52,002 bases of DNA from an uncultured Eubacteriales bacterium. Its GTDB lineage: Bacteria; Bacillota; Clostridia; Oscillospirales; Acutalibacteraceae. The translations under genes and the position numbers were made by a program. The notes under the pieces are model-generated. The model saw nothing but the letters and a program-made list of their open reading frames with translations, was not told where the DNA came from and did no database searches. Where the stretch lies: assembly GCA_900316025.1 (NCBI GenBank), contig ONBJ01000016.1:1-52002 (forward strand), given 5' to 3'. Of the stretch, positions 159 through 47,900 are shown one piece after another. The number at the start of each line of letters is the position of its first letter. The stretch's first letter is position 1.

Positions 159-254
159 GGCGATTGCAGACCGTTTCGGACAAGTCCGAAACGGAACAGC
201 AGGCTTGAGCCTGCTGTTCATCAAAAGCTTTTGCTTTTGATGTCTGCAATCGCC
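159..254. repeat. Cloverleaf repeat, copy 1
   Basis: The outer stem GGCGATTGCAGAC (159-171) pairs with its complement at 242-254. Inside lie three hairpins of exactly 24 nt, each with a 10-bp stem and 4-nt loop: CCGTTTCGGA (171-194), AACAGCAGGC (195-218) and CATCAAAAGC (219-242), each followed by loop and perfect complement. It belongs to an eight-copy family. By arm order this copy has the same orientation as copies 2, 3 and 8 and is inverted relative to copies 4-7. It lies downstream of the kinase-like gene, beyond that gene's terminator. Confidence 0.95.
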
Positions 255-326
255 TTTTCAGTATAGCCGCAAGCCGCTGTTTCCGCTTTTCTCAAATAAA
301 AAGCACAAAAAACAAAATTAAATACT

Positions 327-364
327 AAAAACAAGCCACCAACAATCACTTATTGCGGTGGCTT
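327..364 (-). terminator. Rho-independent terminator of the kinase-like gene
   Basis: Minus-strand hairpin AAGCCACC/GGTGGCTT (364-333) with a 16-nt loop, followed by GTTTTTAG. It begins 16 bp past the stop codon at 381. Confidence 0.8.
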
Positions 365-380
365 AAATTTTGGAATTATA

Positions 381-2093
381 TTACTGAATTGCGGGAGCTG
401 TTCTGTCCTTATAGACAAACGTCTGTTCCGTAGCACTTTCGGGCTTCTTGCCAAGACTTACGTTTATCGTGATAGCTGAGCCGTACTCCTGCTTATCTCC
501 CTCTTTTATGTTTCCTGAGTAGCCGATGACATTTCCTGCCGGAATGCTGTCGCTGTAACCAAGAGTTGAATTTACAACAAATCCGTTTTTAACAAGATTT
601 TCTGTCGCAACATCCTTGTTGACATTCTGAATCTTAGGCAGCTCTCTGTACTGTGTTCCCTTGCTTATGGTACAGGTTATCGTTACGCCGTCATTTCCTC
701 TTGAAACAGTTTTCTGAGCATCGGGAGTCTGCTTGCATATTTTACCTTCTGGTACAGTATCGCTGAATTCTTCATCTATAGCCTTGTATATTGCATATTC
801 ATTGCTGCTGTCTGCTACAGTCTTTGCTTCCTCCCATGTCTTTCCTATAAAATCGGGTACACGGAAATATTCGCTGTCAGCGGCATAAGTAAAGTCCTCC
901 GGCATAGCCTCAGATGACATAGTAGCACTCTGTGTAGGCTCATTGTTTATGTCAAACATACCGTCAAGCGGGTTTTTTGAATACCACAGGTATCCAAGAC
1001 CTCCGAACACGGCAAGGGCTATGAGCATTGATATTACTCCTACCCTGAAGTTGCTTATTTTGCCCTTCTCCTCCTGAGGTGCTTTCTCATCGGGTACTTC
1101 GACCGTTCTGGATATTTCGTCCTGCATAGCCTTGACAGTAGGTGCTGCCGAAAGCTGCTCGGCAAGCTCTCTGAAAGAAGATATTCTTTCAGCCCTGTTT
1201 ACCTGAAGTCCCTTTGCCAGTGTCGATATTACAAAAGGCGGAAGCTTCTTTGCTATGCTTGTACTCATTAAAAGACGGCCGTCCTCTTTTCTTTTCAAAG
1301 CATCAAGCGGAAGCTTTCCTGTAAGAGCAAAAAACATAGATGCACAGAAACCGTAAACATCTGTTACAGCGTCAAGCTCGCCGTCTTCCTCATACTGTTC
1401 GGGGGCACTGCACCCTGAAAACAGCTCAGCTTCTGTTGCGTTTCCTTTCTGCCTTACCTCACGAATGGCAAAGTCATCAAGTCTGAGCCTTCCCTCTGAC
1501 GAAACAAACAGAAGATTTGACGGACATATACCCAGATGATACATTCCGCTTTCTGAGAGTGTTATCATTCCTTCAAGGAACGGTTTTACCAATGATCTCA
1601 GACTTTCCCATTCAAGGTGTCCGCCGTTTCGTCTGACGTAATCCTCAAACGAAATCACATCTTCATACATACTTACAGTATACACCGTATTGTTATCCTG
1701 AAATACATTTTCTACCTTAACTATGCTGTCATTATCATCGAGGTTCATAACAGCTTGTCCTATGTCGGCAAAGCTGTCCTTCAAAGCGTTGAATTTTCCT
1801 GAACAACCTTTTTTTACAGTGACAACAGAGCTTCCCTCTGTTCTTCTTATCAGATTTTCGGGCAAAAACTCACGTATTTCTACTATTTTTTCCGTTTTGT
1901 TGTCATATCCTATATATCTTACGCTGTCCGACCTGGTATCAAGAACCTTGCCTACAGTGTATCTGTCGTTTTCCAATCCTGTTCCTAATGGCAAAAACGG
2001 CGAGAACTGCTCCGTGTCCTGCGAAAAACCACAGTGAGGACAAATCTGCTCACCGTGCGTATCTTTCATACAACCGTAACATAAATCAGCCAT
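381..2093 (-). CDS. Zinc-ribbon, kinase-fold, PASTA membrane protein (predicted pseudokinase)
   Basis: About 570 aa. The N-terminus is a zinc ribbon (CYGC and CPHC). A Ser/Thr-kinase-like domain, one transmembrane helix (VGVISMLIALAVFGGLGYLW) and two extracellular PASTA-like modules follow. The kinase motifs are degraded: the VAIK lysine position reads VEIRE, the HRD catalytic loop reads YHLGICPSN (Asp lost, Asn kept) and DFG reads DDFA. It is therefore probably catalytically dead and may act as a sensor or scaffold for cell-wall muropeptides; that role is inferred from PASTA kinases. I chose the ATG at 2093 because AGGTG precedes it and the promoter -10 box overlaps the upstream ATG at 2126. 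Its neighbours are lipoproteins of unknown role. Confidence 0.8.
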   Translation of the reverse strand: MADLCYGCMKDTHGEQICPHCGFSQDTEQFSPFLPLGTGLENDRYTVGKVLDTRSDSVRYIGYDNKTEKIVEIREFLPENLIRRTEGSSVVTVKKGCSGKFNALKDSFADIGQAVMNLDDNDSIVKVENVFQDNNTVYTVSMYEDVISFEDYVRRNGGHLEWESLRSLVKPFLEGMITLSESGMYHLGICPSNLLFVSSEGRLRLDDFAIREVRQKGNATEAELFSGCSAPEQYEEDGELDAVTDVYGFCASMFFALTGKLPLDALKRKEDGRLLMSTSIAKKLPPFVISTLAKGLQVNRAERISSFRELAEQLSAAPTVKAMQDEISRTVEVPDEKAPQEEKGKISNFRVGVISMLIALAVFGGLGYLWYSKNPLDGMFDINNEPTQSATMSSEAMPEDFTYAADSEYFRVPDFIGKTWEEAKTVADSSNEYAIYKAIDEEFSDTVPEGKICKQTPDAQKTVSRGNDGVTITCTISKGTQYRELPKIQNVNKDVATENLVKNGFVVNSTLGYSDSIPAGNVIGYSGNIKEGDKQEYGSAITINVSLGKKPESATEQTFVYKDRTAPAIQ

Positions 2094-2124
2094 AAAAGCA
2101 CACCTACTTTCCGAATATGTAATC

Positions 2125-2154
2125 ATTATAACATATATACACTTACGTTTTCAA
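2125..2154 (-). promoter_or_regulatory. Promoter of the kinase-like gene
   Basis: TTGAAA (2154-2149), 18-bp spacer, TATAAT (2130-2125) on the minus strand. Transcription would start near 2118, giving a leader of about 25 nt to the ATG at 2093. Confidence 0.65.
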
Positions 2155-2330
2155 CTAAAATATAGCAATAAATCTTATTTTATACACATAATTTTCTTTA
2201 TATGACAGGAACAGAAACCGAATATCATCTTAAAATATGCGTACAAGACCTTTTCTTTAAGTATATTTAACCTTATTTCTGCAATTATACCATATACTTC
2301 TTCAAAATATATCAGAAATTTTGAAGTAAG

Positions 2331-3590
2331 TTACTGATGTTCACTTTCTGTCGGCTTTTTTGTAGGAGCCTGTGTGGGAGGCTCGGTTTCAGGTTCGGCA
2401 TACGCTGTCAGATTGAAGTCCTTGTCAAAATATTCGGACGTGTATGTTGTTATACCAAGCTGTTTCTGAATTGCAGGGATTGTCTTTCCGCTTGCACTGT
2501 TGAAGTATATATAGTTGTTCTTGTCAAGCTGATTATTTGAATCCATTTTCAGCGGATTTGTAGAAATCGCAACATATGCAACTCCCTTATCCTTTTCGCC
2601 CTTCTTCATAGCCGTACAGCCCTTGCCTACGTTTTTCTGATCCTCATTGCTTACAAAGTTCACAGTAACCTTGTAGTATGCTATAAGACTGTTGTTGCTT
2701 ATATCCTTTCTGAAGTATATGTACTGGTATTTTTCCAGCGAAAAGCTTGTGTCATATGTACATTCAAATGAGCTTAAATCCCTCTTTTTTCCGCTTGCGT
2801 ATGTATAGTCGCAGTCAAATATGTAATAATCATTCTGCATATGATACTTCATCTCTTTGTTCATCTCTTCACGCAGATTTTCAGTATCAACACCATCCAG
2901 TGATGTTCTCGAGCCTGCAAGCTTTTCCACGGTATATTTTTTTGTTTCTTCCTTGAGGAAATATCCTTTTTTCTTCAGCTTGTCATCAATTTCCTTTGCG
3001 GATACTGTAACGGTATCTCCGTTCCAGAGGTATTTGTCTGCACTTTCTATTTTGAATTTCACACAGTTTTTTACAACCTCAGAACAGTTTCCGGTATCCA
3101 GCTTTGCCGTACCTTTTCCGTTCGTTCCTGCAAACTTAATTTTAAGATTTTTGAATGCGTCAAGCTCTTCTCCGTCAGACAGATTTTTTGCCGTACATGT
3201 GAGTGTCGTATCCTCCATTACAACATTTGCTCTTTCCGCAAGATATTTGTCATATGATGCAACAACGTCAAATTCTTCATTGTTTTTGAGCTTTCCGTCC
3301 TGATTTTTATTTGCAAACTCAAACTTTATTCCGTTGAGCAGCTTTTTTATTTCCGAGTAATGCTCATTTTCCTTATATTTTGCAAGTTCCTTTTCAACAT
3401 TCTCGGTATTAAGCGAAAGAACCGCCGTTCCGTGACCGTTGCAGCCTCCTATCTGAACATCAAGAAGCTTTGACGATATTATGCTTATCTTAACTCTTCC
3501 ACAGCCCGTAAAAATAAATGCACTCAACAAAACAACCCCGACAAGCAGGGCATACAGAAAAATATTTCTTTTTTTTTCTGTTTTTCTCAT
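2331..3590 (-). CDS. Uncharacterised lipoprotein with duplicated N-terminal domain
   Basis: About 419 aa. The signal peptide ends in a lipobox (FIFTGC), so it is probably exported and lipid-anchored. Two related Ig-like segments follow one another: one contains VQIGGCNGHGTAVLSLNTEN, the other KIKFAGTNGKGTAKLDTGN, both of the type 'fG..GkGtA.ld...'. A C-terminal domain contains MKKGEKDKGVAYVAI, and the protein ends in a Pro/Thr-rich tail (PPTQAPTKKPTE). The lipoprotein at 5056-5910 is a paralogue with one copy of the repeated segment and the same C-terminal motif. I chose ATG 3590 over TTG 3593 because GAGGT lies 7 nt upstream. I do not recognise a function. Proximity to a PASTA protein suggests an envelope role. 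Confidence 0.8.
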   Translation of the reverse strand: MRKTEKKRNIFLYALLVGVVLLSAFIFTGCGRVKISIISSKLLDVQIGGCNGHGTAVLSLNTENVEKELAKYKENEHYSEIKKLLNGIKFEFANKNQDGKLKNNEEFDVVASYDKYLAERANVVMEDTTLTCTAKNLSDGEELDAFKNLKIKFAGTNGKGTAKLDTGNCSEVVKNCVKFKIESADKYLWNGDTVTVSAKEIDDKLKKKGYFLKEETKKYTVEKLAGSRTSLDGVDTENLREEMNKEMKYHMQNDYYIFDCDYTYASGKKRDLSSFECTYDTSFSLEKYQYIYFRKDISNNSLIAYYKVTVNFVSNEDQKNVGKGCTAMKKGEKDKGVAYVAISTNPLKMDSNNQLDKNNYIYFNSASGKTIPAIQKQLGITTYTSEYFDKDFNLTAYAEPETEPPTQAPTKKPTESEHQ

Positions 3591-3682
3591 CAATATTACC
3601 TCGCTTTATTACCTCACTTTTTGTCTGTATTCCGTATACAAACGGAATTTGCGGTATACAGCCATACCTGAAGCAACGCACA

Positions 3683-3783
3683 GTGCGATTGCAGACCCTT
3701 GCGGAATATTCCGCAAGGAGTTTAATTGCCTCGGCAATTAGACAATAAAAAGACGTACGTCTTTTTATTGTCTGCAATCGCAC
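3683..3783. repeat. Cloverleaf repeat, copy 2
   Basis: The outer stem GTGCGATTGCAGAC (3683-3696) pairs with its complement at 3770-3783. The arms are CCTTGCGGAA with its complement, a shorter TAATTGCC/GGCAATTA arm, and a 28-nt perfect palindrome beginning CAATAAAAAGACG. It lies between the alcohol dehydrogenase stop and the lipoprotein start. It is the least regular copy, because its middle arm is shorter. Confidence 0.92.
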
Positions 3784-3808
3784 ACTCAGTCTGACAGTCT
3801 ACAATGTA

Positions 3809-4975
3809 TCAGAGGCTTTCTCTAAGAATTTGCTTTACCTCGTCCTTTGTAAGAACCTTGTAGCCTCCGTTAAGAATGATGGTTGCGTCTGCTATTCCGT
3901 CAATCATATATTCATCGACACCAAGCTCTCCTGTTCTCAGGCAAAGACCGAGATTATTCATCCACGTTTCCAGTGCATTCAGACCTGCTTCTGCTGCCTG
4001 CTTGTCTGTCATTCCGCTGGTATCAATCTGCCATACCTGCTCTGCAAAACGTCTGAATTTTTTAATTCCATAGGGCATAATCATTCTGTAGTAGGGCAGC
4101 GATACCGCAGCAAGAGTCATTCCGTGAGTAGCGTCCGTGTAAGCCCCCACAGCCTGTCCTATCATATGCACCATCCAGTCCGTGGATTTTCCTCTTGATA
4201 TAAGGGTATTAAGTGCCCATGTCGCCGTCCACATTATATTTGAACGTGCTTCATAATCTTCTGGATTTTCCAGTGCTTTATATGAGCTGTTTATAAGCGA
4301 TTTCATCAGTCCCTCAGCTATATAGTCGCTGGTGTTGTCATCATCTCCGGAAAAATACTGCTCGCATATATGATTGAATATGTCATATATTCCGGCAACC
4401 ATCTGACGCTTGGGAAGGGAATATGTGAATACGGGGTTTAATATTGAAAATTTCGGCATTACGTTTTCCTTGAAAACATGACCTATTTTGAGCTTCTGAG
4501 CATGGTTTGTTATTACAGAGCCTGCGTTCATCTCAGAGCCTGTTCCTGCCATTGTAAGTATGCAGCCTACGGGAATTATCTCGCAGTCAGGGTCTTCAAA
4601 TTTGATATAGTACTTGTCCCACGGGTCGTCCTTACAGTTTACCGATACGGACAATGCCTTTGCGTAGTCACAGCACGAGCCTCCTCCTACTGCAAGAATA
4701 AGGTCAATATTGTTTTCACGTGCTGTCTTTATTCCGTCATAGAGCTTATCGACTGTGGGATTGGGCATAACCCCTCCGTCCTCAACGACGTTCTTTCCGT
4801 TTTTTCTGAGTATGTCAATAACTGCATCGTATATGCCGTTTCTCTTTATCGAACCGCCTCCGTATACAAGCTGTACATTTTTTCCGTACTTCGGAAGCTC
4901 ATTGTTCAGATATTTGAGTGAATCATCACCGAAATAAAGCTTTGTTGCATTTACATAACTGAAATTGCCTAACAT
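3809..4975 (-). CDS. Iron-containing alcohol dehydrogenase (butanol dehydrogenase / YqhD-like)
   Basis: 388 aa, full length for the family. It probably reduces aldehydes to alcohols with NAD(P)H in fermentation, in the cytoplasm. The N-terminal dinucleotide fold carries the GGGSCCDYAKAL motif. The C-terminal metal-binding domain has GIYDIFNHICEQYF and DATHGMTLAAVSLPYY, which hold the Asp and His ligands of the family. The start is well supported (GGAAGG about 9 nt before the ATG). It is closest in look to the BdhA/YqhD group; the actual substrate cannot be told. A short TTAAACTTTTTATG string upstream (5021-5034) may be debris of the second repeat family. Confidence 0.9.
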   Translation of the reverse strand: MLGNFSYVNATKLYFGDDSLKYLNNELPKYGKNVQLVYGGGSIKRNGIYDAVIDILRKNGKNVVEDGGVMPNPTVDKLYDGIKTARENNIDLILAVGGGSCCDYAKALSVSVNCKDDPWDKYYIKFEDPDCEIIPVGCILTMAGTGSEMNAGSVITNHAQKLKIGHVFKENVMPKFSILNPVFTYSLPKRQMVAGIYDIFNHICEQYFSGDDDNTSDYIAEGLMKSLINSSYKALENPEDYEARSNIMWTATWALNTLISRGKSTDWMVHMIGQAVGAYTDATHGMTLAAVSLPYYRMIMPYGIKKFRRFAEQVWQIDTSGMTDKQAAEAGLNALETWMNNLGLCLRTGELGVDEYMIDGIADATIILNGGYKVLTKDEVKQILRESL

Positions 4976-5055
4976 ATTATTCGTCCTTCCTTTATTATCT
5001 GCATAAGGTCATTCTTGTTGCCTTAAACTTTTTATGATTTTGTATACAGACAGCA

Positions 5056-5910: not shown

Positions 5911-5936
5911 GTAATCTTCACCACCGAAAAATACGA

Positions 5937-6024
5937 GTTCAAGGGCTTTGCCCTTGAAAATCCCACCAAAGGCTCTGCCTTTGGAAACCGCAAGCCTTTG
6001 AAAAGGCTTGACCTAAACTTTATG
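5937..6024. repeat. Triple-hairpin repeat (family 2), copy a
   Basis: Three hairpins in order: AAGGGCTTTGCCCTT (5941-5955), CCAAAGG/CCTTTGG (5966-5984) and AAGCCTTT/AAAGGCTT (5992-6009), ending in GACCTAAACTTTATG (6010-6024). The same order recurs near 17.2, 19.3 and 36.1 kb. It lies between the HAD phosphatase stop and the lipoprotein start. Confidence 0.9.
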
Positions 6025-6043
6025 GTGTCAAAGTTCAGACTGA

Positions 6044-6682: not shown

Positions 6683-6712
6683 ATAGGCATACTCCTCAAT
6701 AATTACAATTAC

Positions 6713-8060: not shown

Positions 8061-8073
8061 TTTATATTTTTCT

Positions 8074-8169
8074 CTCATCTCTCGGCTTCACCGCAGGATT
8101 TGGCACCTTACTGCTTGCAGCAGGTTGCCGGACTTCTTCGGGCCTGTTCCCTCCGTCACTCTTGATAAG
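8074..8169 (-). promoter_or_regulatory. SAM-I (S-box) riboswitch aptamer
   Basis: Reading the minus strand, the conserved S-box elements appear in order: CTTATCAAGAG at 8169, GGAGGGA, GGCCC, the AAGTCCGGCAACCT core, GGTGCCAAATCCTGC and the closing GAGAGATGAG at about 8074. This is the usual arrangement of the four-way junction. Placement just before metK with a downstream terminator implies transcriptional OFF control by SAM. Confidence 0.95.
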
Positions 8170-8204
8170 TCAGTTGCTTTATTCACTTTTTACGTACGTG
8201 CGGT

Positions 8205-8320: not shown

Positions 8321-8422
8321 CGGGCGATTGCAGCCCCCTGCGGATTTAATCCGCAGGGGTACAAAGTGCCTGCACTTTGTACAATCAAAATACGCAGTAT
8401 TTTGATTGGCTGCAATCGCCCG
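8321..8422. repeat. Cloverleaf repeat, copy 3
   Basis: The outer stem CGGGCGATTGCAGCC (8321-8335) pairs with its complement at 8408-8422. The last base pair of the core differs from most copies (GCC/GGC instead of GAC/GTC), again as a matched change. The arms start CCCTGCGGAT, TACAAAGTGC and CAATCAAAATAC, each followed by its complement. It lies between yajC and the metK promoter. The gap 7979-8487 is fully accounted for by the riboswitch, the promoter and this repeat. Confidence 0.94.
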
Positions 8423-9007: not shown

Positions 9008-10165
9008 CTATATTCTTTTACCGAGAATTTCTCTGTAATGATTGTAAAACTCTGTAAATCTATCTTCATCTATCGCTTTTCTTATTTTCTCCATAAGATT
9101 GTTATAGAAATAAAGGTTGTGCATTACTGCAAGACGCATACCAAGCATTTCGCCGCTTTTGAAAAGATGATGTACATACGCTCTGTCAAAATTACGGCAT
9201 ACGGGACAGTCACAGTTTTCATCTATCGGGTTGGTATCAAGCTTATATTTTGCATTAAGGATATTTCTTATTCCGTTCCACGTAAAAAGATGTGCGTGTC
9301 TTGCGTTTCTGCTTGGCATAACGCAGTCGAACATATCAATTCCCCTGTATACAGTCTCAAGTATGTTTACGGGAGTTCCCACTCCCATAAGATAGCGTGG
9401 CTTATCCTGCGGCATATGTTCTTCAACATTTTCAATTACGTGATACATTACCTCGGCAGGCTCTCCTACCGCAAGCCCTCCTATTGCATATCCTGATAAA
9501 TCAAGCTCCCTTATTTCTTTCATATGGTCTGTTCGTATGTCGTCATATGTAGAACCCTGATTTATTCCGAAAAGCATCTGCTCTCTGTTTATTGTAGTAT
9601 CCAGAGAATTAAGCCTTTCCATTTCTTCCTTGCAGCGTACAAGCCAGCGTGTTGTTCTTGCAACAGAATTTTTTGTATAGCTGTACTCCGCAGGATTTTC
9701 TATACATTCGTCAAATGCCATAGCTATAGTTGACGCTAAATTTGACTGTATACGCATACTTTCTTCAGGCCCCATAAAGATTTTTCTGCCGTCTATATGT
9801 GAAGAAAAATATACGCCTTCTTCCTTTATGCTCCTGAGCTTTGCAAGCGAAAACACCTGAAATCCTCCGCTGTCCGTAAGTATCGGAGCGTTCCAGCGGG
9901 TAAAATTGTGAAGTCCGCCGAGCTTCTTTACAACATCGTCCGTAGGTCTGAGGTGAAGATGATATGTGTTGCAAAGCTGTATCTGACACTTTATTTTTTT
10001 CAAATCCAACGCACTTACTGCTCCCTTTATAGCTCCGCAGGTAGCAACATTCATAAACACGGGTGTCTGAACCGTTCCGTGAACCGTACTCAGTTCACCA
10101 CGTCTTGCATAACCCTCTTTTTTTATCAGCTTAAACAAATGTATTTTTCCTTTCTGTTTTGTCAT
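9008..10165 (-). CDS. tgt: Queuine / preQ1 tRNA-ribosyltransferase
   Basis: About 385 aa. It exchanges guanine-34 of GUN-anticodon tRNAs for the queuosine precursor preQ1. Seen are LTDSGGFQVFSL (active-site region), MFDCVMPSRNARHAHLF (second catalytic Asp) and the zinc site CDCPVC with a downstream His (VHHLFKSGE). The reading frame is open up to 10330 through cloverleaf repeat copy 4, but that extension is not protein-like. I take ATG 10165. A TTG at 10138 preceded by AAAGGA is a serious alternative, because its spacing is better and the protein would begin LFKLIKKEG. It is paired with queA upstream, the next enzyme of the same pathway. Confidence 0.93.
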   Translation of the reverse strand: MTKQKGKIHLFKLIKKEGYARRGELSTVHGTVQTPVFMNVATCGAIKGAVSALDLKKIKCQIQLCNTYHLHLRPTDDVVKKLGGLHNFTRWNAPILTDSGGFQVFSLAKLRSIKEEGVYFSSHIDGRKIFMGPEESMRIQSNLASTIAMAFDECIENPAEYSYTKNSVARTTRWLVRCKEEMERLNSLDTTINREQMLFGINQGSTYDDIRTDHMKEIRELDLSGYAIGGLAVGEPAEVMYHVIENVEEHMPQDKPRYLMGVGTPVNILETVYRGIDMFDCVMPSRNARHAHLFTWNGIRNILNAKYKLDTNPIDENCDCPVCRNFDRAYVHHLFKSGEMLGMRLAVMHNLYFYNNLMEKIRKAIDEDRFTEFYNHYREILGKRI

Positions 10166-10186
10166 AATCAGACGGCTTCGCTCATA

Positions 10187-10287
10187 CTGCGATTGCAGAC
10201 GACAAAAGCGTTCCGCTTTTGTCAGATTGCAGGCTTTAGCCTGCAATCTCGTTTCGGACAAATGTCCGAAACGGTCTGCAATCGCAG
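10187..10287. repeat. Cloverleaf repeat, copy 4
   Basis: The outer stem CTGCGATTGCAGAC (10187-10200) pairs with its complement at 10274-10287. The arms start GACAAAAGCG, AGATTGCAGGC and CGTTTCGGAC. The preceding 14 bases (CGGCTTCGCTCATA) are shared with copy 5 and nearly with copy 6. It fills the space between queA and tgt, ending 21 bp before the tgt ATG. Its orientation is opposite to copies 1-3 and 8. Confidence 0.95.
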
Positions 10288-10310
10288 TGTTGGACGTACT
10301 CTGCTTCTTT

Positions 10311-11336
10311 TCAGAATATAGCCATAGCATCTCCGAACGAGAAAAATCTGTACTTTTCCTCCACTGCTATTTTATAGCTTTCCATAATTGTATCGTAATC
10401 CGCAAACGCGGACACAAGCATTATCAGCGTACTTTCTGGAAGGTGAAAGTTAGTTATAAGTCCGTCCAAAAGCCTGAACTCATATCCCGGATAAATGAAA
10501 ATATCGGTAAAACCTTCATCGGCTTCAGCTCTTCCGTTATGCTTTCCTGCAACGGTTTCAAGCGTTCGGCAGCTTGTTGTGCCTACCGCTATAACTCTTC
10601 CTCCGCTTTCTTTTGTACGGTTTATAAGCTGTGCAGTTTCCTCAGGCATTTCGTAATGCTCAGAGTGCATTTTATGCTTTGTTACATCATCAACCTTTAC
10701 GGGTCTGAACGTTCCAAGTCCTACGTGCAGAGTTACATAGCCTATTTTTACTCCCTTATCCTCAATTTTACGCATAAGTTCAGGTGTAAAATGAAGTCCT
10801 GCCGTGGGGGCTGCCGCTGAGCCAAGCTCTCTGCTGTAAACGGTCTGATACCTTTCCTTGTCCTCAAGCTTTTTTGTTATATACGGCGGCAGCGGCATTT
10901 GTCCTACCTTATCAAGTGCAGAGTAAAAGTTTTCCTTACATTCAAACTCAACAAGTCTGTTTCCGTTTTCAAGCACCTCTTTGACCCTGCATTTCATTAC
11001 ATCGCCAAAGCTGAACTCGTCACCCTCTCTTGCTTTTTTACCCGGCTTCGTAAGACATTCCCATACATTTCCGTATGACTGCGACAACAATAAAAATTCC
11101 ACTTTAGCTCCCGTTTTTTTAGTTCCGTAAATTCTTGCAGGCAGCACCCTTGAATCATTTACTATAAGACAGTCACCTTCTTTAAGATATTCCGTTATAT
11201 CGTAAAAATGCCTGTGCTCTACGGTTTTGCTTTTCCTGTCTATAACCATAAGTCTTGATGAATCCCTTGGCTGTGCGGGTGTCTGTGCGATAAGCTCCTT
11301 CGGAAGCTCATAGTAAAAATCGCTTGTTTTCAGCAA
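10311..11336 (-). CDS. queA: S-adenosylmethionine:tRNA ribosyltransferase-isomerase
   Basis: 341 aa, full length. It moves the ribosyl part of SAM onto preQ1 in tRNA to form epoxyqueuosine. Family features are [20 protein letters not shown] at the N-terminus, [16 protein letters not shown] in the centre and [20 protein letters not shown]-type sequence near the end. The start codon is TTG at 11336 with GGGAG 7 nt upstream. It lies immediately before tgt but is separated from it by a cloverleaf repeat, and from the upstream peptidase gene by another copy. Confidence 0.97.
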
Positions 11337-11381: not shown

Positions 11382-11480
11382 TGCGATTGCAGACGGCAAA
11401 AGCTTAACGCTTTTGCCAAATTTCAAGCCTGAGCTTGAAATTTCGTTTCGGACATTCGTCCGAAACGGTCTGCAATCGCA
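11382..11480. repeat. Cloverleaf repeat, copy 5
   Basis: The outer stem TGCGATTGCAGAC (11382-11394) pairs with its complement at 11468-11480. The arms start GGCAAAAGCT, AAATTTCAAGC and CGTTTCGGAC. The left flank CGGCTTCGCTCATA matches copy 4. The third arm is nearly identical to that of copies 1, 4 and 6, while the middle arm is unique. It lies between the M24 peptidase gene and queA. Confidence 0.95.
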
Positions 11481-17187: not shown

Positions 17188-17313
17188 TGTTTAAGGGCTT
17201 CGCCCTTAAAAATCCCGTCTGTGTCGTTTAAGGGCTTTGCCCTTAAAAATCCCACCAAAGGCTCCGCCTTTGGAAACCGCAAGCCTTTGAAAAGGCTTGA
17301 CCTAAACTTTATG
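17188..17313. repeat. Triple-hairpin repeat (family 2), copy b, with duplicated first module
   Basis: The first hairpin module (TTTAAGGGCTTCGCCCTTAAA followed by AATCCC) occurs twice (17190-17216 and 17227-17252). CCAAAGG/CCTTTGG, AAGCCTTT/AAAGGCTT and GACCTAAACTTTATG follow. This duplication is the only length variation of this type in the window. It lies between rsfS and leuS. Confidence 0.9.
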
Positions 17314-19253: not shown

Positions 19254-19280
19254 AAATATTATCCTCTCCTGTTAATAAAC

Positions 19281-19369
19281 CATAAAGTTTAGGTCAAGCC
19301 TTTTCAAAGGCTTGCGGTTTCCAAAGGCGGAGCCTTTGGTCAGGATTTTTAAGGGTGAAACCCTTAAAC
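19281..19369. repeat. Triple-hairpin repeat (family 2), copy c, inverted
   Basis: Reverse orientation compared with copies a, b and e. It starts CATAAAGTTTAGGTC (19281-19295), then the AAGCCTTT, CCAAAGG and TTTAAGGG hairpins in reverse order. It lies between ftsY and rdgB. Confidence 0.9.
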
Positions 19370-23882: not shown

Positions 23883-23969
23883 CTGTCTGTTCAACTCCTA
23901 ACCATTCCATAAGGTTTTATGCAAGCCGCATTTCTACACTCATTCCCAGTCTGCGGCTACGCTCAAACT

Positions 23970-24065
23970 GCGATTGCAGCCGACAAAAGCTTACGCTTTT
24001 GTCAGATTGTCGGTTACCACCGACAATCTCGTTTCGGACAAATGTCCGAAACGGGCTGCAATCGC
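23970..24065. repeat. Cloverleaf repeat, copy 6
   Basis: The outer stem GCGATTGCAGCC (23970-23981) pairs with its complement at 24054-24065. The arms start CGACAAAAGC (fused to the outer stem), AGATTGTCGGT and CGTTTCGGAC. The left flank CGGCTACGCTCAAA resembles the flank of copies 4 and 5. It lies between the radical SAM gene and smc. Confidence 0.94.
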
Positions 24066-24079
24066 CGCAAATCCCTCAC

Positions 24080-24122
24080 AAAGCTGTATTTTCACGGCTA
24101 CGCTCCGACAAAATACAGCTTT
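24080..24122. repeat. Long hairpin at the 3' end of the radical SAM gene
   Basis: AAAGCTGTATTTT (24080-24092) pairs perfectly with AAAATACAGCTTT (24110-24122). The 17-nt loop contains CGGCTACGCTCCG, similar to the flank of cloverleaf copy 6. There is no U-run on either side, so it is not a classic terminator. It may belong to the repeat system. Confidence 0.6.
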
Positions 24123-24123
24123 A

Positions 24124-25131
24124 TCATGGATTTTTTACAAACTCAGTTTTATATTTTTCAATATCTTCTCTGCCCTTTATGCTTATCGAATAGCCTTTTT
24201 TTCTGAAATAGGCTATGTTACTTTTTTTCTGACCCAAAGCCTTTGATATTTCCCGTTGGTTTACGTAAAAAGTATATATACCCTCAGGCAGAGCATTTTT
24301 TTCTATACAGCTTTCAAAGATTTTTCTGTAAAGAACCGAAAAGCACAGTTCACCAAAAGACGGATGCCACGCTCCGGACAGCATTCCCTTTGCAATATCA
24401 TCGGTATTGTGCAGACCAAGCCTTATTACTTTTATGCCGTTTTTCTCAAACATACAGAGAAGCTCCGCACAGAGTTCAACAGTTTCTTCAAGACTGTATG
24501 TATCGTAAATTCCCTGAATATAATAATCCGCAAGCAGGGTATCTTTCATTATTATTGTAGGGTATATCCTGACCGTTGCAGGTTTAAGCTCGCATATACG
24601 CTTTGCTGTATATAAATCCTTTTCTGCGGTTGCAAGATAAAGTCCCGTCATCATTTGCAGACCAAGTTCAAAGCCGAATTTCTTTATCATCTCTGACGCT
24701 TTCACAACATCTTCTGCCGTATGACCTCTTTTATTTGCATTAAGTACATCATCGCACATACTCTGTGCTCCAAGCTCTATTGATGTTACTCCGTACTGCC
24801 TCAGTATTCCGAGAACATCTTCGTCTATGCAGTCGGGTCTTGTGGAAATTCTTATTCCTGCAAAGCTTCCGTCACTGACGTGTTTATATGCTGTTTCCAG
24901 AAGCATAAGCATATAGCTGCGTTCTATCGCTGTGAAACTTCCTCCGAAAAATGCTATTTCGGATTTTTCGGGATTATAGCTTCTGCTTTCCTTTGCCGTA
25001 ATAACTGCCGTTTCTATGTCCTCCGCTTTGGGCTGATTATCCTTTCCTGTTATCCTTACCTGATTGCAGAACGAACAGCAGTGAGGACAGCCGTTATGCG
25101 GTACAAATATGGCTACATTTGAATGTTTCAA
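24124..25131 (-). CDS. Radical SAM protein (Elp3-like, clostridial rnc-smc neighbour)
   Basis: 335 aa. The N-terminal CX3CX2C iron-sulfur motif is in GCPHCCSFCNQ, followed by AFFGGSFTAIE and an Elp3-like radical SAM barrel (STRPDCIDEDVLGIL, ELGAQSMCDDVL). No acetyltransferase domain is visible, so it is not a complete Elp3. Substrate unknown; tRNA modification is a reasonable guess. The start is TTG at 25131, overlapping the rnc stop codon (TTGA), and the protein begins MKHSNVAIFVPHNGCP as homologues do. The position between rnc and smc is common in Clostridia. Confidence 0.88.
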   Translation of the reverse strand: MKHSNVAIFVPHNGCPHCCSFCNQVRITGKDNQPKAEDIETAVITAKESRSYNPEKSEIAFFGGSFTAIERSYMLMLLETAYKHVSDGSFAGIRISTRPDCIDEDVLGILRQYGVTSIELGAQSMCDDVLNANKRGHTAEDVVKASEMIKKFGFELGLQMMTGLYLATAEKDLYTAKRICELKPATVRIYPTIIMKDTLLADYYIQGIYDTYSLEETVELCAELLCMFEKNGIKVIRLGLHNTDDIAKGMLSGAWHPSFGELCFSVLYRKIFESCIEKNALPEGIYTFYVNQREISKALGQKKSNIAYFRKKGYSISIKGREDIEKYKTEFVKNP

Positions 25132-26926: not shown

Positions 26927-27022
26927 GCTGCGATTGCAGACGGCAAAAGCAAAGCTTTTGCCAGCTTTAGTATTAAAGCTCGCTTTTCGGATTAAATCCG
27001 AAAAGCGGTCTGCAATCGCAGC
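26927..27022. repeat. Cloverleaf repeat, copy 7
   Basis: The outer stem GCTGCGATTGCAGAC (26927-26941) pairs with its complement at 27008-27022. The arms start GGCAAAAGC (3-nt loop), AGCTTTAGTA and CGCTTTTCGGAT. Outside the main stem, TCCGTCA (26916-26922) can pair with TGACGGA (27031-27037), extending the stem after small internal loops. It lies between trmFO and plsX. Confidence 0.94.
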
Positions 27023-33846: not shown

Positions 33847-33872
33847 GGGTAAGCACCTCCAAAAATTACTTT

Positions 33873-33910
33873 GAGAAACAAAAGTACGGGCAGATAACTC
33901 CGCCCGTACT
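33873..33910 (-). terminator. Attenuator terminator in the infC leader
   Basis: Minus-strand AGTACGGGC pairs with GCCCGTACT around a 10-nt loop (33883-33910), followed by TTTTGTTTCTC. It lies between the leader and the infC ribosome-binding site. Confidence 0.85.
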
Positions 33911-34027
33911 CAAACGTCAAAACAGAAACCGCAAAGCTGACTGCGGCTGTTAATTCTCAAACGATTGACCCGTGTCGGACGAAACCTCACAGGTGAAAGC
34001 ATATATCTGCCTTTCTTTATTTTCCTG
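33873..34027 (-). promoter_or_regulatory. L20-type leader RNA of infC-rpmI-rplT
   Basis: A leader of about 180 nt runs from the promoter to infC, contains local inverted repeats (for example GCCGCAGTCAGCTTTGCGGT) and ends in a terminator. Placement and layout match the Firmicute L20 leader, where L20 binding promotes termination. I infer the class from context and did not compare it with a covariance model. Confidence 0.7.
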
Positions 34028-36110: not shown

Positions 36111-36129
36111 TTATCTAGCTCCTTTGTGT

Positions 36130-36213
36130 GTTTAATCACCCTTAAAAATCCTGACCAAAGGCTCTGCCTTTGGAAACCGCAAGCCTTTGAAAAGGCTTGA
36201 CCGAAACTTTATG
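36130..36213. repeat. Triple-hairpin repeat (family 2), copy e
   Basis: The first module is degenerate (TTTAATCACCCTTAAA). CCAAAGG/CCTTTGG and AAGCCTTT/AAAGGCTT follow, then GACCGAAACTTTATG (one change from GACCTAAACTTTATG). It lies between the ferredoxin start and the glf terminator. Confidence 0.88.
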
Positions 36214-41173: not shown

Positions 41174-41188
41174 CCACTGAACTCTGCA

Positions 41189-42262: not shown

Positions 42263-42292
42263 TCTCTTTTTCCTCCGTTTCCAAAAAATATT

Positions 42293-43390: not shown

Positions 43391-43395
43391 ATGGT

Positions 43396-44514
43396 TCACT
43401 TCTTTCTGCGAATAAGTATTCTTCTGTAACACATTTGCAATTTTCCACTTTGATTTCTGTAACACAATTTACCACGTCTAAATCCTTTGTGTTCTTGGAA
43501 TCTTGCGGTTACTTCTTCTTTCGACAACATAGCTCCTACTCCATAACTTACTCCCATATCGCCACCGTCAATTCCCAAAATTTCAAACTGTTCAGGGTTA
43601 TATTTATCCATAAAAGTGATGGGAACACCCATAACACCGTCATAGTCAAACGGAATTTCAGCCGTTTTGCTTACTTCTATGGCATTATAATTATCATATG
43701 TAGGATATTCTTCTGGGTTATATGATTTATAAAGTATTAAATTCTCGTGTCTTTTCTGAATATCAAGATTTGTAAACCAACAAATATTACCCATACTACG
43801 CCATTTTTGTCCTGTTTTATCTATCCAGAAGCGTGTTTCTCTTGCTTCATAACTTTGAGGAACAGTAAAAGCCATATCTCCTGATTTATAGCCAATCCAC
43901 ATTTTATTTTCTTTTAATAAAGGAAAAATTTCTTTATAGGTAATTGCATTCTGATTTCCTATTATAATAAATTTCTTGTCATATTGGATAAGCTGTGCCA
44001 CATATTCCCTAAATAAACTGAACGGCGGATTTGTTACTACAATATCTGCCTTTTTCAACAACTTTATACATTCTTCCGAACGGAAATCACCGTTGCCCTT
44101 CAGCAGTTTTGGCTTTCCCTCTTCAGATTTCAGTAATAACTCTACGTCCTGCAAGTCAAATGCACCGTCACCGTTAAGGTCTTTTACTTCCGTTATCTCA
44201 ATTTTATACGGTTTCCTGTCCGTAACCTTACCCACAACCTTTTCTTCTCCGAACAACGAAAGCTGTGTGTAAACAATCGGTGAACCTGCATAACAGGTGC
44301 ATATCAGCTTTTTTAACCCTAAATGATTGAAATTCATCGCAAAGTATTTAAAAAAATTGCTTTCGTAAGGGTCATCGCAGTTACATAACACTACCTTATC
44401 TTTAAAATGATTTTTATAATGCCGCAATTCATTTTCAATATCAGAAAGCTGTGTATAGAACTCGTCTTTTTTCGCTTTGTTGGCAGCACTCAAAGCTTTA
44501 TTGTTATTAGCCGT
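43396..44514 (-). CDS. EcoRI-type adenine-specific DNA methyltransferase, apparent ACG start
   Basis: 372 aa. Beta-class-like N6-adenine methyltransferase of the EcoRI_methylase family: NKAKKDEFYTQLSDIENEL at the start, CNCDDPYESNFFKYF, the catalytic ADIVVTNPPFSLFREYVAQL (NPPF) and a C-terminal RILIRRK. An EF-hand-like DLNGDGAFDLQDVELLL sits before the NPPF motif. The family-typical start would be (M)ANNNKALSAANKAKKDEFY, but that codon is ACG (44514-44512), placed 8 nt after a perfect GGAGG. The only other candidate, TTG 44547, lacks a ribosome-binding site. It is more AT-rich than the aro genes around it. Confidence 0.9.
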   Translation of the reverse strand, partial: TANNNKALSAANKAKKDEFYTQLSDIENELRHYKNHFKDKVVLCNCDDPYESNFFKYFAMNFNHLGLKKLICTCYAGSPIVYTQLSLFGEEKVVGKVTDRKPYKIEITEVKDLNGDGAFDLQDVELLLKSEEGKPKLLKGNGDFRSEECIKLLKKADIVVTNPPFSLFREYVAQLIQYDKKFIIIGNQNAITYKEIFPLLKENKMWIGYKSGDMAFTVPQSYEARETRFWIDKTGQKWRSMGNICWFTNLDIQKRHENLILYKSYNPEEYPTYDNYNAIEVSKTAEIPFDYDGVMGVPITFMDKYNPEQFEILGIDGGDMGVSYGVGAMLSKEEVTARFQEHKGFRRGKLCYRNQSGKLQMCYRRILIRRKK

Positions 44515-44550
44515 AACAAACACCTCCGTTTTTACTAAAGTTTTCAAAAT

Positions 44551-45807
44551 TCAGAATTTGCCGTTGATTTTTCGGTAATCCTCAAAAAATGACGGATAAG
44601 ATTTATTGATACTTTCTCTGTCGGTAATCTCTATAGCTCCTCTGCATTTAGCCACAGCTATAGCCATAGACATAACTATTCTGTGGTCGTTGCAGCCGTT
44701 TACAAAGCCGCCGCCCGCACTTTTTATTCCGTGAATTATCAGACCATCTGCTTTTTCCGTAACGTCCGCACCTATTCCGCAGAGTGCTTCGCTTATAGCT
44801 TTGAGCCTGTCACTTTCCTTTATGCGAAGCCTTTCAGCTCCGTATATATTTGTAGTTCCCTCGGCAAATGCAGCCGTAACAGCAAGTATCGGAACAAGGT
44901 CGGGAATTTGCGTTGCGTCAATGTCAGTTCCGTGCAGACCATCTTTTCCGCTGACTTCTATAGAGTTTTCATTTATTTTCACATCAGCACCAAATTTTCT
45001 GAAAATATCAATACACGCACTGTCGCCCTGTGCTGTTTCCGTACTAAGTCCGTTAAGCGTGATATTTCCGCCCAAAGCTCCTGCCGCCATAAAAAATCCT
45101 GCCTGCGACCAATCACCCTCACATCTGTATTTGCAAGGTTCGTACTTCTGACCGCCCTTTATAAAATATCCGTATTCTGTACGCTCAATCTTAACCCCGA
45201 ATTTCGACATCGTATTTATTGTCATATCTATATACCCTGCCGATTGAAGCGGTGATGTGAGTATTATTTTTGATGAAGCCTCTGCAAGCGGTAGTGCAAG
45301 CAAAAGTCCTGTTATAAACTGGGAGCTTACATCTCCTTTTATGCGGAACTCTCCGCCTGATAATCTGCCCTTTATCCTGAGCGGTAAGCCTCCCTGAGTT
45401 ATGCACTCGACACCCGCTTTCGGCAGACAGTCAAGATAAATTCCTACAGGTCTTTGCGGAAGTCTGCCCTTTCCTGTGAATACCGCTTCCACACCTCCGA
45501 CAGCCGCTACGGGAATAAAAAACCTGAGTGTAGAACCTGACTCCCTACAGTCAAGCTCTGCTCTATTTTCGGAAAACAATGTCGTACCGTCAATATACAG
45601 CGTATTTCCGTTTTTAGTTATTTCCGCTCCCAAGGCTCTCGCACAGTCTATGGTAGCAAGAATATCCTGAGAATAGTCTACAGGCGAAATTACGCTCTTT
45701 CCCCTTGCCAGAGAAGCACAGATTATCGCTCTGTGTACATCGCTTTTTGACGGCGGCAGCGTAACCTCTCCCTTAAATACTGTCGGCATAACCCTTATAT
45801 TGCTCAT
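44551..45807 (-). CDS. aroA: 3-phosphoshikimate 1-carboxyvinyltransferase (EPSP synthase)
   Basis: 418 aa. Joins shikimate-3-phosphate and PEP. Motifs are LPPSKSDVHRAIICASLA, RESGSTLRFFIPVAA, LSGGEFRIKGDVSSQFITGLL, RLRIKESDRLKAISEAL and NGCNDHRIVMSMAIA. ATG 45807 begins the conserved MSNIRVMPTVFKGEVTLPPSK; the frame extends to 45837 without a better site. It follows aroB by 63 bp. Confidence 0.97.
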   Translation of the reverse strand: MSNIRVMPTVFKGEVTLPPSKSDVHRAIICASLARGKSVISPVDYSQDILATIDCARALGAEITKNGNTLYIDGTTLFSENRAELDCRESGSTLRFFIPVAAVGGVEAVFTGKGRLPQRPVGIYLDCLPKAGVECITQGGLPLRIKGRLSGGEFRIKGDVSSQFITGLLLALPLAEASSKIILTSPLQSAGYIDMTINTMSKFGVKIERTEYGYFIKGGQKYEPCKYRCEGDWSQAGFFMAAGALGGNITLNGLSTETAQGDSACIDIFRKFGADVKINENSIEVSGKDGLHGTDIDATQIPDLVPILAVTAAFAEGTTNIYGAERLRIKESDRLKAISEALCGIGADVTEKADGLIIHGIKSAGGGFVNGCNDHRIVMSMAIAVAKCRGAIEITDRESINKSYPSFFEDYRKINGKF

Positions 45808-45870
45808 ATATAACAAGCTTCCTTTCTGCAGGTACAAAATTCAGGTAAAACATCGGCTGAAATTTGTTTT

Positions 45871-46923
45871 TTACACATTACAAAAGTCAAACATATCAGC
45901 CTTTTTCACGGAAAAAATTCTGCTTGAACCTATCCTGTCCAGCACAACAAGCGATATTGATGAGCCTGTGCTTTTTTTATCCGAAAAACTGCTTTTCACT
46001 ATGCTTTCCAAAGAAATTCTGTCGGAAACAGGCAGATTATACTTTATGCAAAGTTCGGAAATTCTGTTTGCAGTACCCTTTTCGCTGATACCCTTTTCTT
46101 CGCTTGCCTTTGTAATCATAACCATACCTACAGCGACAGCCTGTCCGTGTGATATTTCCTGAAAATTATGCTCTTTCTCTATTGCGTGACCAAGTGTATG
46201 TCCGAAATTAAGCAAGGCTCTTTCTCCCTTGTCCGTTTCGTCACGCTCCACGACATCACGCTTTATACTTACACAGCGGTATATAATATCGTCAATTATG
46301 CTTTTTATATTATCACAGCTTTCCAGAATGTCAAAAAGCTCCGTACTTTTTATACAGCCGTATTTTATTACTTCTCCCATTCCGTCAGCAAAAAAGTGAG
46401 GTGTGAGCGTATCAAGCGTATCGGGGTCAATCAGAACTGCCGAAGGCTGCCAGAACGCTCCTACAAGATTTTTGCCCTGTGGTATATCCACTCCTGTTTT
46501 TCCTCCCACAGATGAATCCACCTGAGATAAAAGTGATGTCGGTATCTGAACAAAGTCAATACCCCTCAGGTATGTTGCAGCAGCAAAGCCTGCCATATCA
46601 CCCGTAACACCTCCGCCCAAGGCTACGATTATATCCGAACGTGTAAAGCCGTTGTCTGTCAGCTCACTGTACATAGAATAAACAGTGTCAAGTCTTTTGC
46701 TCTGCTCGCCTGCCTTAAACACAAAGCTGAAAGTGTCGAACCCAAACTCCGAAAGCGATTTTTTTACCCTTTCGCCGTAAATCGGAGAAACATTTGTGTC
46801 CGATATAATCATAGCCTTTTTAGCTTTTGAAACATTCCTTATATATTCTCCGCAGTTTTCGGTAATCCCACGTTCAATAAATATGTCATAAGGCTTTCCC
46901 GTATTAACGTGTACCTTTTTCAT
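45871..46923 (-). CDS. aroB: 3-dehydroquinate synthase
   Basis: 350 aa. NAD- and metal-dependent conversion of DAHP to 3-dehydroquinate. Motifs include VALGGGVTGDMAGFAAATYLRGIDFVQIPTSLLSQVDSSVGGKTGVD, GMGEVIKYGCIKS, RALLNFGHTLGHAIE (metal His) and SHGQAVAVGM. AAGGAGG precedes the ATG, which overlaps the tyrA stop by four bases. Confidence 0.97.
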   Translation of the reverse strand: MKKVHVNTGKPYDIFIERGITENCGEYIRNVSKAKKAMIISDTNVSPIYGERVKKSLSEFGFDTFSFVFKAGEQSKRLDTVYSMYSELTDNGFTRSDIIVALGGGVTGDMAGFAAATYLRGIDFVQIPTSLLSQVDSSVGGKTGVDIPQGKNLVGAFWQPSAVLIDPDTLDTLTPHFFADGMGEVIKYGCIKSTELFDILESCDNIKSIIDDIIYRCVSIKRDVVERDETDKGERALLNFGHTLGHAIEKEHNFQEISHGQAVAVGMVMITKASEEKGISEKGTANRISELCIKYNLPVSDRISLESIVKSSFSDKKSTGSSISLVVLDRIGSSRIFSVKKADMFDFCNV

Positions 46924-47750
46924 TCGTTAAGCTCCTCCTTGACCGTTCTTCCTGCCTTGAGCTGACGGTAAAGACTTTGACCGTCCTCGTTTGCTATGCT
47001 GTTCCTTATTCTTGAAAGATTATCAATAAGCGTGTCAAGCTCCGACAAAAGAGGAGCTTTATTTTCAAGAAACAGCTCAGTCCATAGCTCGGCATTTATT
47101 TTCGCTACCCTTGATACATCTCTGTAGCTTCCTGCTGAAAATCCCTTGTGGTTTCTGCATACAGGACTAAGCACATATGCACAGGCAAGTGCATGGGGTA
47201 GCTGTGATGTAAATGCTATCATTCTGTCATGTACTTTCGGCGTTACTACAGGGGTTTGTGTAAAGCCGATTGATGTCACAAAATTCGTTACGGCTTCTAC
47301 CGATTTACGCTTTGCCTTGCACGGAACTATTATACACGATGCACCCTGAAACAAATCTGCGTCCGATGCTGAAAATCCGTTTACTTCTTTTCCTGCCATC
47401 GGGTGCGTTCCTACAAACGTAAAGCCAAACTTATCGGAAAGATTTACCATATTACCGCATATCTCCGACTTTATACCGCAGGTATCCGTTACAATACAGT
47501 CCTTGTTTATGTATTCTCCGTTCTTTTCGATAAACTCTACCGCCGCCTTGGGATAAGTTCCCAGAATAAGCATATCTGCGTCCCTTAAATCCTCAGCCGT
47601 ACCCTCTCTGTCTATTGCACCGCACTCCAATGCAAGCTCTATCGGCTCTTTACTTCTGTTTATTCCTATTACCGTATGCTCTGTGTATTTCTTTATCGCC
47701 TTGGCATATGAGCCGCCTATTATTCCCAGACCTGAAATAACAATTTTCAT
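46920..47750 (-). CDS. tyrA: Prephenate dehydrogenase
   Basis: 276 aa. Oxidative decarboxylation of prephenate to 4-hydroxyphenylpyruvate for tyrosine. N-terminal NAD fold VISGLGIIGGSYAKAIKKY, then DVTDTCGIKSEI-type sequence (VTDTCGIKSEICGNM), FVGTHPMAGKEVNGF and FTSQLPHALACAYVLS. No ACT or chorismate mutase domain is fused. GGAGGTACT lies upstream of the ATG. Cloverleaf copy 8 separates it from aroK. Confidence 0.95.
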   Translation of the reverse strand: MKIVISGLGIIGGSYAKAIKKYTEHTVIGINRSKEPIELALECGAIDREGTAEDLRDADMLILGTYPKAAVEFIEKNGEYINKDCIVTDTCGIKSEICGNMVNLSDKFGFTFVGTHPMAGKEVNGFSASDADLFQGASCIIVPCKAKRKSVEAVTNFVTSIGFTQTPVVTPKVHDRMIAFTSQLPHALACAYVLSPVCRNHKGFSAGSYRDVSRVAKINAELWTELFLENKAPLLSELDTLIDNLSRIRNSIANEDGQSLYRQLKAGRTVKEELNE

Positions 47751-47804
47751 TCACTCAGTACCTCCCTGCTTATTTTTTCGGGCTTTCATCTTAACCCATA
47801 GTTA

Positions 47805-47900
47805 TGCGATTGCAGACCCTCGTAAACGAACGTTTACGAGGCTTTAAAGGCAAAGCCTTTAAAGTATCAAAATACAGGTATTTTGATGTCTGCAATCGCA
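47805..47900. repeat. Cloverleaf repeat, copy 8
   Basis: The outer stem TGCGATTGCAGAC (47805-47817) pairs with its complement at 47888-47900. The arms start CCTCGTAAACG, CTTTAAAGGC and ATCAAAATA. The same orientation as copies 1-3. It lies inside the shikimate operon between tyrA and aroK, so it would be transcribed as part of the operon mRNA. Confidence 0.95.

Follow-up and report, generated by a model that had tools for sequence, protein, structure and literature searches.

Intergenic cloverleaf repeats of an uncultured Eubacteriales bacterium and a congener, possibly kept as paired DNA

A stretch of 52,002 nucleotides from an uncultured Eubacteriales bacterium of the family Acutalibacteraceae (contig ONBJ01000016.1, assembly GCA_900316025.1), hereafter called the window, carries eight intergenic cloverleaf repeats in which an outer stem encloses three abutting hairpins. 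They belong to a family with more than 100 copies in the source genome (G000) and in a congener (G005), whose arms are paired almost throughout and whose paired bases frequently change together between the two species. The reading favoured here, to which we give a probability slightly below one half (about 0.47), is that the family is an old intergenic repeat resembling miniature inverted-repeat transposable elements (MITEs) and that its copies would be kept, for some function, as a paired DNA four-way junction.

Number and genomic spread of the repeats

All eight elements described in an earlier sequence-only reading of the window were recovered, at positions agreeing within a few bases (Table 1). 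A scanner that uses no sequence information (outer stem of at least 9 bp, three hairpins of at least 7 bp, gaps of at most 2 nt) recovers these eight and no others in the window, and it gives no match in five windows obtained by mononucleotide shuffling. Folded as single-stranded DNA (ssDNA), three of them give z scores of -13.2 (copy 1), -12.7 (copy 4) and -11.9 (copy 8) relative to dinucleotide shuffles, and copy 1 takes the geometry ascribed to it, its outer stem having 11 bp and each of its three arms exactly 10 bp and a 4-nt loop. The layout recalls a tRNA, but ARAGORN detects no tRNA or tmRNA gene in the window. The repeat does not match a catalogued RNA family either: at the gathering score of Rfam, the sole match in the window is a SAM riboswitch and none lies over the eight copies, the best sub-threshold overlap being that of copy 8 with AaHKsRNA22 (E 0.36). 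The location between genes holds for copy 4 despite its overlap with a mechanically called open reading frame (ORF; 9008-10330): the tgt profile begins at the third residue of a shorter frame (9008-10141), so that this copy sits between queA and tgt.

The family extends well beyond the window. Its exact-end pattern, defined as GCGATTGCAG...CTGCAATCGC with 61-91 bases between the two 10-mers, occurs 135 times in the 2.08-Mb source genome and never when read backwards. It occurs 134 times in G005 and, among the 118 genomes of the set of relatives, is present only in these two. G005 was assigned to RUG213, two of the five G005 loci compared being 100% identical to records of the latter (3.0 and 3.9 kb); RUG names stand for rumen genomes. 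A collection made by end patterns or by the blind scanner, from about 0.99 Mb of stretches and from search loci, comprises 150 distinct copies, whose interiors are all different and of which 122 keep both exact 10-mer ends. In stretches chosen because their contigs hold copies, G000 has 110 scanner matches over 640 kb, i.e. 17 per 100 kb, and G005 has 56 over 374 kb, i.e. 15 per 100 kb; the ends are canonical in 92 and 48 of them, respectively. In stretches taken irrespective of copies from two of the four further congeners (G001-G004), namely G004 (396 kb) and G001 (388 kb), the scanner finds no cloverleaf. None of the four congeners has a copy by the exact-end pattern or by model R1 (see below), G002 and G003 being 76% and 84% complete.

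A wide taxonomic spread was considered and rejected: among the at least 62 matching stretches listed, 44 are from RUG213, and a cloverleaf fold is absent from all 18 that come from other organisms. Carriage by phages was also dismissed, two of three IMG/VR stretches having no cloverleaf and the third (L102, IMGVR_UViG_3300032007_004071) being chromosomal DNA. L102, which bears three cloverleafs, is 99.7% identical over 11.6 kb to a chromosomal contig of G000 (C24); to judge from its sequence, this "viral" contig is probably misclassified.

Anatomy and pairing of the copies

The parser resolved 140 of 146 candidate intervals, the six others matching by chance or overlapping copies that had been counted. 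The parsed copies are 85-107 bp long and all distinct in sequence. Each has an outer stem, of 12 pairs in 90 copies, which encloses three abutting hairpins; most hairpin stems measure 9-11 bp and most loops 3-4 nt. Their arms hold 4184 Watson-Crick pairs out of 4209 (99.4%) besides 13 G.T, 8 A.C and 4 other pairs, the parser ending every stem on a Watson-Crick pair by construction. Where the outer ends are non-standard, they have usually changed on both sides (GCGATTTCAG/CTGAAATCGC, GAGATTGCAG/CTGCAATCTC, GCGGTTGCAG/CTGCAACCGC), and a few copies have quite different outer stems of up to 37 bp. In the flanks, the outer stem continues into a decaying and one-sided extension, near CGCCTGAGCGAAGCCG: in 120 copies, a motif of this kind lies on the right only in 41, on the left only in 10, on both sides in two and on neither in 67, while it appears in none of 120 shuffled right flanks. 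Among the 150 copies, interior identity to the nearest paralogue has a median of 0.74 and does not exceed 0.94, which leaves no near-identical recent copies.

Two single-hairpin derivatives with the same 10-mer ends were also seen (L158:3479 and L165:5871), the latter adjoining a full cloverleaf. In another copy (L152:2538, corresponding to C47:28538 of G000), the first arm repeats the terminal 10-mer, which gives two alternative outer stems; it is identical in RUG213.

Change between orthologous copies

From 67 orthologous G000/G005 pairs, three that were not parsed and one that is wholly inverted were left out. In the remaining 63, 1742 arm pairs are unchanged and 86 have undergone compensated change, 13 have changed to G.T, 19 to A.C and 19 to another mismatch, and 10 are uncompensated doubles; 20 pairs fall on gaps and seven were not Watson-Crick at the outset. 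Flipping of whole elements, considered as a cause of the random orientation of the copies, was discarded, merely one of 64 parsed orthologous pairs being inverted.

Ordinary hairpins of the same genomes are not homogenised in this way. The like-for-like comparison (perfect stems of at least 8 bp, G000 versus G005, gapped hairpins kept) counts apart a second repeat family, D1, made of three open hairpins. It gives for 178 cloverleaf arms 1658 unchanged pairs, 83 compensated changes, 50 single changes (G.T 12, A.C 19, other 19) and 10 uncompensated doubles, versus 388 unchanged pairs, three compensated changes, 79 single changes (G.T 18, A.C 25, other 36) and one uncompensated double for 52 control hairpins belonging to neither the cloverleafs nor D1. 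A separate control based on 74 of 87 other hairpins (the 13 gapped ones, some of them D1 with compensated change, being set aside) gives 599 unchanged, four compensated and 81 single.

The loops evolve differently from the stems. In 35 orthologous pairs, changes affect 120 of 391 loop sites and 651 of 3840 flank sites and are less frequent in stems. Among 126 arms whose stems are conserved, at least two changes are present in 36 loops, the closing pair being counted with the loop; 23 of these loops lie within one change of the reverse complement of their orthologue (shuffle mean 6.6, maximum 16 in 2000) and eight are exact inversions (shuffle mean 1.9, p 0.0005). A cruder test without the stem condition gives a weaker excess (10 exact inversions, shuffle mean 5.3, maximum 14).

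A selected RNA should tolerate changes to G.U and purge those to A.C. On the transcribed strand of 50 tandem pairs, single changes lead to G.U in 12 cases, to A.C in 13 and to other mismatches in 15; among 3708 transcribed-strand pairs within copies, five are G.U and three A.C, the parser treating wobble as a mismatch and allowing at most one per stem. As G.U is not tolerated above A.C, the pairing looks kept at the DNA level and not by RNA selection, which disfavours the folding module in mRNAs that had been put forward among the possible natures of the repeat.

Presence and absence at orthologous sites

Among the G000 copies, 60 have both flanks located in G005 stretches and 56 of these sites are filled (for 21 more copies, at most one flank could be paired); in the reverse count, which overlaps the former, 55 of 63 located sites of G005 copies are filled in G000 and 15 more are unpaired. 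Twelve sites were scored as filled in one of the two species only. Their alignment reveals no clean target duplication; at least three hold remnants of a lost copy, which indicates losses there, and one gap holds another repeat. In G004, all seven located orthologous gaps are without cloverleaf and 114-188 bp shorter; in G001, all nine are without cloverleaf and six hold at least two other perfect hairpins.

Because the orthologous gaps of these congeners have no copy, a mobile-element origin, which was one of the options of the sequence-only reading, is plausible. The empty sites that it called for are found, but clean target duplications are not seen at the 12 one-species sites, and nothing points to recent movement, as near-identical copies are lacking and most located sites are common to the two species. 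In the 676 kb of G000 covered, 15 of 238 10-mers lie outside scanner matches: ten belong to five missed cloverleafs, four to two single hairpins and one is solitary. None of the 15 pairs around a gene, as the ends of an autonomous element would. The Y1 transposase profile PF01797 (RAYT, REP-associated tyrosine transposase) has no match in G000 or G005, other transposase families not having been searched; a RAYT-driven repetitive extragenic palindrome (REP) was rejected on this ground.

Gene context

Gene context was established with a crude ORF caller for 118 copies of G000 and 54 of G005. Together, these 172 copies lie in tandem (127), convergent (23) or divergent gaps (11), are scored inside an ORF (10) or stand at an edge (1). 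The corresponding figures are 87, 15, 9, 6 and 1 in G000, and 40 tandem, 8 convergent, 2 divergent and 4 inside ORFs in G005, so that 102 of 118 and 48 of 54 copies are tandem or convergent. The six called ORFs of G000 that contain a copy are four of less than 90 aa, the over-called tgt start and one of 277 aa. Divergent gaps are under-used, since their share of all gaps of at least 100 bp (46/274 in G000, 22/155 in G005) exceeds their share of the copies.

Tandem copies start at a median of 36 bp past the upstream stop and end at a median of 70 bp before the next start. Their orientation is random relative to transcription (40 with, 40 against and 7 undetermined in G000; 20, 15 and 5 in G005). 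T-runs lie on the downstream side of 33 of 127 tandem copies and on the antisense side of 29 of 127; this lack of strand bias speaks against an intrinsic terminator.

Cloverleafs in a second genus

The sequence-only reading had proposed scanning the genome and its relatives with a covariance model. Such a scan returns copies in G000 and, with model R1, 11 weak matches (E 5e-8 to 0.008) in G142, a member of a different genus of the same family. Folding of the G142 loci gives cloverleafs whose outer stems are, for example, GGGCGAAGCCC or GGGCGGCAGCCC. In 38.4 kb of stretches near known matches, nine more cloverleafs appear at relaxed thresholds (five at strict ones), while none is found in one 12-kb stretch or in 20 shuffles of each stretch. 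No two of the 18 cloverleafs collected from G142 begin with the same twelve bases. One type of arm (CAAAAGC...GCTTTTG) is similar to an arm found in the G000 family, and a common origin of the two sets is possible to this extent.

Model R1 matches in two of 150 genomes of the family (28 candidates scored per genome); the mixed model R2 matches in four of 398 genomes of the family and, among 394 of the order, in G000 itself only (10 candidates scored per genome). As few candidates were scored per genome, rare or divergent families can be missed. G411, from another genus of the family, was rejected as a carrier: its locus L300 (contig C197) is a tandem array of near-identical hairpins.

Proposed model and rival explanations

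Taken as a whole, the history of the repeat can be viewed as follows. When spreading, it would have been about 150 bp long, its outer inverted repeat reaching up to about 30 bp, and it would have colonised an ancestor common to the source species and RUG213. Today, what is kept as DNA would be a core of about 96 bp, in which an outer stem of 10-12 bp encloses three abutting hairpins. Its hairpins would form in single-stranded or supercoiled DNA, where template switching between the two arms would copy one onto the other and flip the loops; the paired changes would arise because this process homogenises arms and inverts spacers. Selection would remove copies that lose the junction, and the outer stem, mostly fixed, would be the recognition site of a putative junction-binding host protein with a role, for example, in local supercoiling or in chromosome packing near gene ends. 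Selection and a protein reading the outer stem are suggested by three observations: control hairpins are not homogenised, stems change less than flanks, and 122 of 150 copies keep the 10-mer ends. The nucleoid-protein binding site proposed by the sequence-only reading would fit these conserved 10-bp ends.

A bolder version, in our view doubtful, holds that the selected unit is a DNA shape: a closed four-way junction with four helices of about one turn each, present at more than 100 sites and showing covariation at the DNA level. Its sequence is mostly fixed at the outer stem in one genus, whereas in a second genus even the outer stem varies; a structure-specific protein would use the shape in organising the chromosome or in supercoiling coupled to transcription. 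If this were true, the family would be, to our knowledge, the first repeat family defined by a conserved secondary structure of DNA and not of RNA. Covariation is normally taken as proof of RNA structure.

Several observations weigh against the favoured model. Its weakest step is selection as opposed to pure mutation, as template switching can homogenise arms and invert spacers without any function, according to the available text of a study in yeast (PMC8604942). This step is further weakened by the D1 hairpins, which also show compensated change (eight double versus 17 single in 28 hairpins). Some of these comparisons may pair different insertions and not one evolving copy. Furthermore, two of 11 strongly changed control loops look inverted and three outer-stem variants are uncompensated, with one side changed. 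Site sharing between G000 and G005 is overstated by the use of stretches from contigs known to hold copies and, in one direction, D1 is shared almost as frequently (8/10 versus 55/63 for the cloverleaf). Copies have been lost at some sites, so single copies are dispensable. As for G142, the likeness of its cloverleafs may reflect either homology or convergence.

Much of this would also be expected if the copies were functionless relics of a dead MITE family, with hairpins that stay perfect only because template switching by DNA polymerase, or conversion between copies, keeps restoring one arm from the other and flipping the loops. Loop inversion and compensated change are the two products of template switching described in the part of PMC8604942 available; the scarcity of wobble follows without selection, D1 hairpins show part of the same pattern, and some copies have been lost. 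The arms of the G005 orthologue of copy 4 resemble those of copy 5, an expected outcome of conversion. This explanation nevertheless seems unlikely, as ordinary hairpins in the same genomes are not homogenised (three double versus 79 single changes) and template switching leaves the mostly fixed outer 10-mer (122/150) unexplained. In addition, stems change less than flanks, whereas under free homogenisation double changes should build up at a rate near that of the flanks (a matter of reasoning, not of simulation).

An RNA module acting in the 3' regions of mRNAs, as a REP-like barrier, a stabiliser or a terminator, would agree with the 127 of 172 copies in tandem gaps and their median distance of 36 bp from the upstream stop, a distribution resembling that of REPs in the available text of PMC3733652. 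The cloverleaf folds from either strand, so that random orientation is no objection to it. Such a module is nonetheless quite improbable: changes to G.U are not preferred over those to A.C on the transcribed strand (12 versus 13 changes; 5 versus 3 pairs), T-runs are about equally frequent on both sides and no Rfam family reaches its threshold over the copies of the window. Terminal inverted repeats, high copy number, the seven empty and shorter gaps of G004 and the 12 sites filled in one species only would also suit a MITE that is mobile at present and depends on its fold to be transposed by an unseen transposase. Present mobility is nonetheless very improbable in view of the distance between copies (best 0.94, median 0.74), the one-species sites without clear target duplication and including at least three losses, the absence of PF01797 from both genomes (the only transposase family searched) and the failure of all 15 stray 10-mers to pair around a gene in 0.68 Mb.

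The very strong covariation of this family, with almost no wobble on either strand, points to folding, or to repair, at the DNA level. With more than 100 loci in each of two species, and with a second genus, the family provides a natural replicated system in which template switching and the formation of hairpins or cruciforms can be measured in bacterial chromosomes. The family is also a warning for covariance-based RNA discovery.

Comparison with known repeats

A literature search aimed at the repeat found no description of it in the sources within its reach, which excluded subscription journals and preprints, and the word "cloverleaf" is absent from the main texts of PMC2267715, PMC3733652, PMC10969869 and PMC13155455. 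REPs are described, in the available text of PMC3733652, as palindromes of 20-40 bp with GTAG or CGTC tags, located mainly in tandem and convergent gaps downstream of coding regions. The cloverleaf repeat resembles REPs and bacterial interspersed mosaic elements (BIMEs) by its many intergenic palindromic copies and by this distribution, but it differs from them by its size (about 96 bp) and its four helices, the tag itself not having been searched for. Bacterial MITEs (ERIC, RUP, Correia, QMITE2 and others) are short, non-coding and intergenic, with terminal inverted repeats and many copies, as far as the available parts of PMC10969869 and PMC2229807 describe them. The cloverleaf repeat shares all these traits but shows neither near-identical copies nor, at the sites filled in one species only, a clean target duplication, and its arms vary from copy to copy while pairing is kept.

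Template switching in yeast homogenises the arms of inverted repeats and inverts their spacers (PMC8604942, available text); here too, arms become identical and spacers flip, but these changes are concentrated in a repeat family with a four-helix junction, in which stems change less than flanks. Spacers more variable than arms are reported for bacterial inverted repeats in the accessible part of PMC13155455. Finally, an analysis of 40 genomes with hidden Markov models (HMMs) delineated 92 families of stem-loop repeats sharing a fold, according to the accessible part of PMC2267715. The cloverleaf repeat likewise has a common fold, but the main text of that article uses none of the words "cloverleaf", "four-way", "multibranched" or "cruciform".

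The second repeat family, D1

D1 lies in the window at 5937-6024, 17226-17313, 19277-19358 (minus), 36126-36213 and 49883-49970. The stretches covered in G000 (0.99 Mb), G005 (0.71 Mb) and G001 (0.39 Mb) contain 74, 44 and 22 copies, respectively, and that of G004 (0.40 Mb) none. D1 was probably mobile recently, because 35 of the 74 G000 copies match the window copy at 90% identity or more and many sites are not shared. Its sites are shared in 9 of 19 and 8 of 10 cases in the two directions, clearly below the cloverleaf in one direction only.

The copies of the window and neighbouring features

Table 1. Cloverleaf repeats of the window. Strand "+" means that the AAAA-type arm is the third hairpin. 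Orthologues are drawn from RUG213 (G005) loci chosen for carrying copies, which biases the list towards sharing.
Copy	Position	Core	Strand	Evidence and context
1	159..254	160-253	+	End pattern, blind scanner, ssDNA fold
2	3683..3783	3685-3781	+	End pattern, blind scanner; RUG213 orthologue
3	8321..8422	8324-8419	+	Upstream of metK SAM riboswitch (metK on minus); G005 orthologue
4	10184..10290	10189-10285	-	Between queA and tgt
5	11382..11480	11383-11479	-	Between PepQ/Xaa-Pro peptidase-like gene and queA; G005 orthologue
6	23968..24067	23970-24065	-	G005 orthologue with identical core; absent between both flanks in G004 and G001
7	26927..27022	26930-27019	-	Between trmFO and plsX; absent between both flanks in G004
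8	47803..47902	47806-47899	+	Adjoins shikimate-kinase-like gene (scores below curated cut-offs)

The queA gene is flanked by copies 4 and 5. Copy 4 has a G005 orthologue with compensated arms and is absent between both conserved flanks in G004, G001 and G003. For copy 5, the queA-side flank alone was located in G001, G002 and G004, with no copy after it in the stretch examined. The G005 orthologue of copy 7 differs from it by one loop inversion only. An imperfect inverted repeat with 29-nt arms and a 7-nt loop (24069-24133) directly adjoins copy 6, and copy 3 lies just upstream of the SAM riboswitch that precedes metK (8072-8171, minus strand, E 4.4e-16). Elsewhere in the window, an L20 leader match on the minus strand (33872-34023; E 0.041) stays below threshold, with 30.6 bits versus a gathering score of 58.7, and short tandem repeats with a 9-bp step occupy positions 50384-50446.

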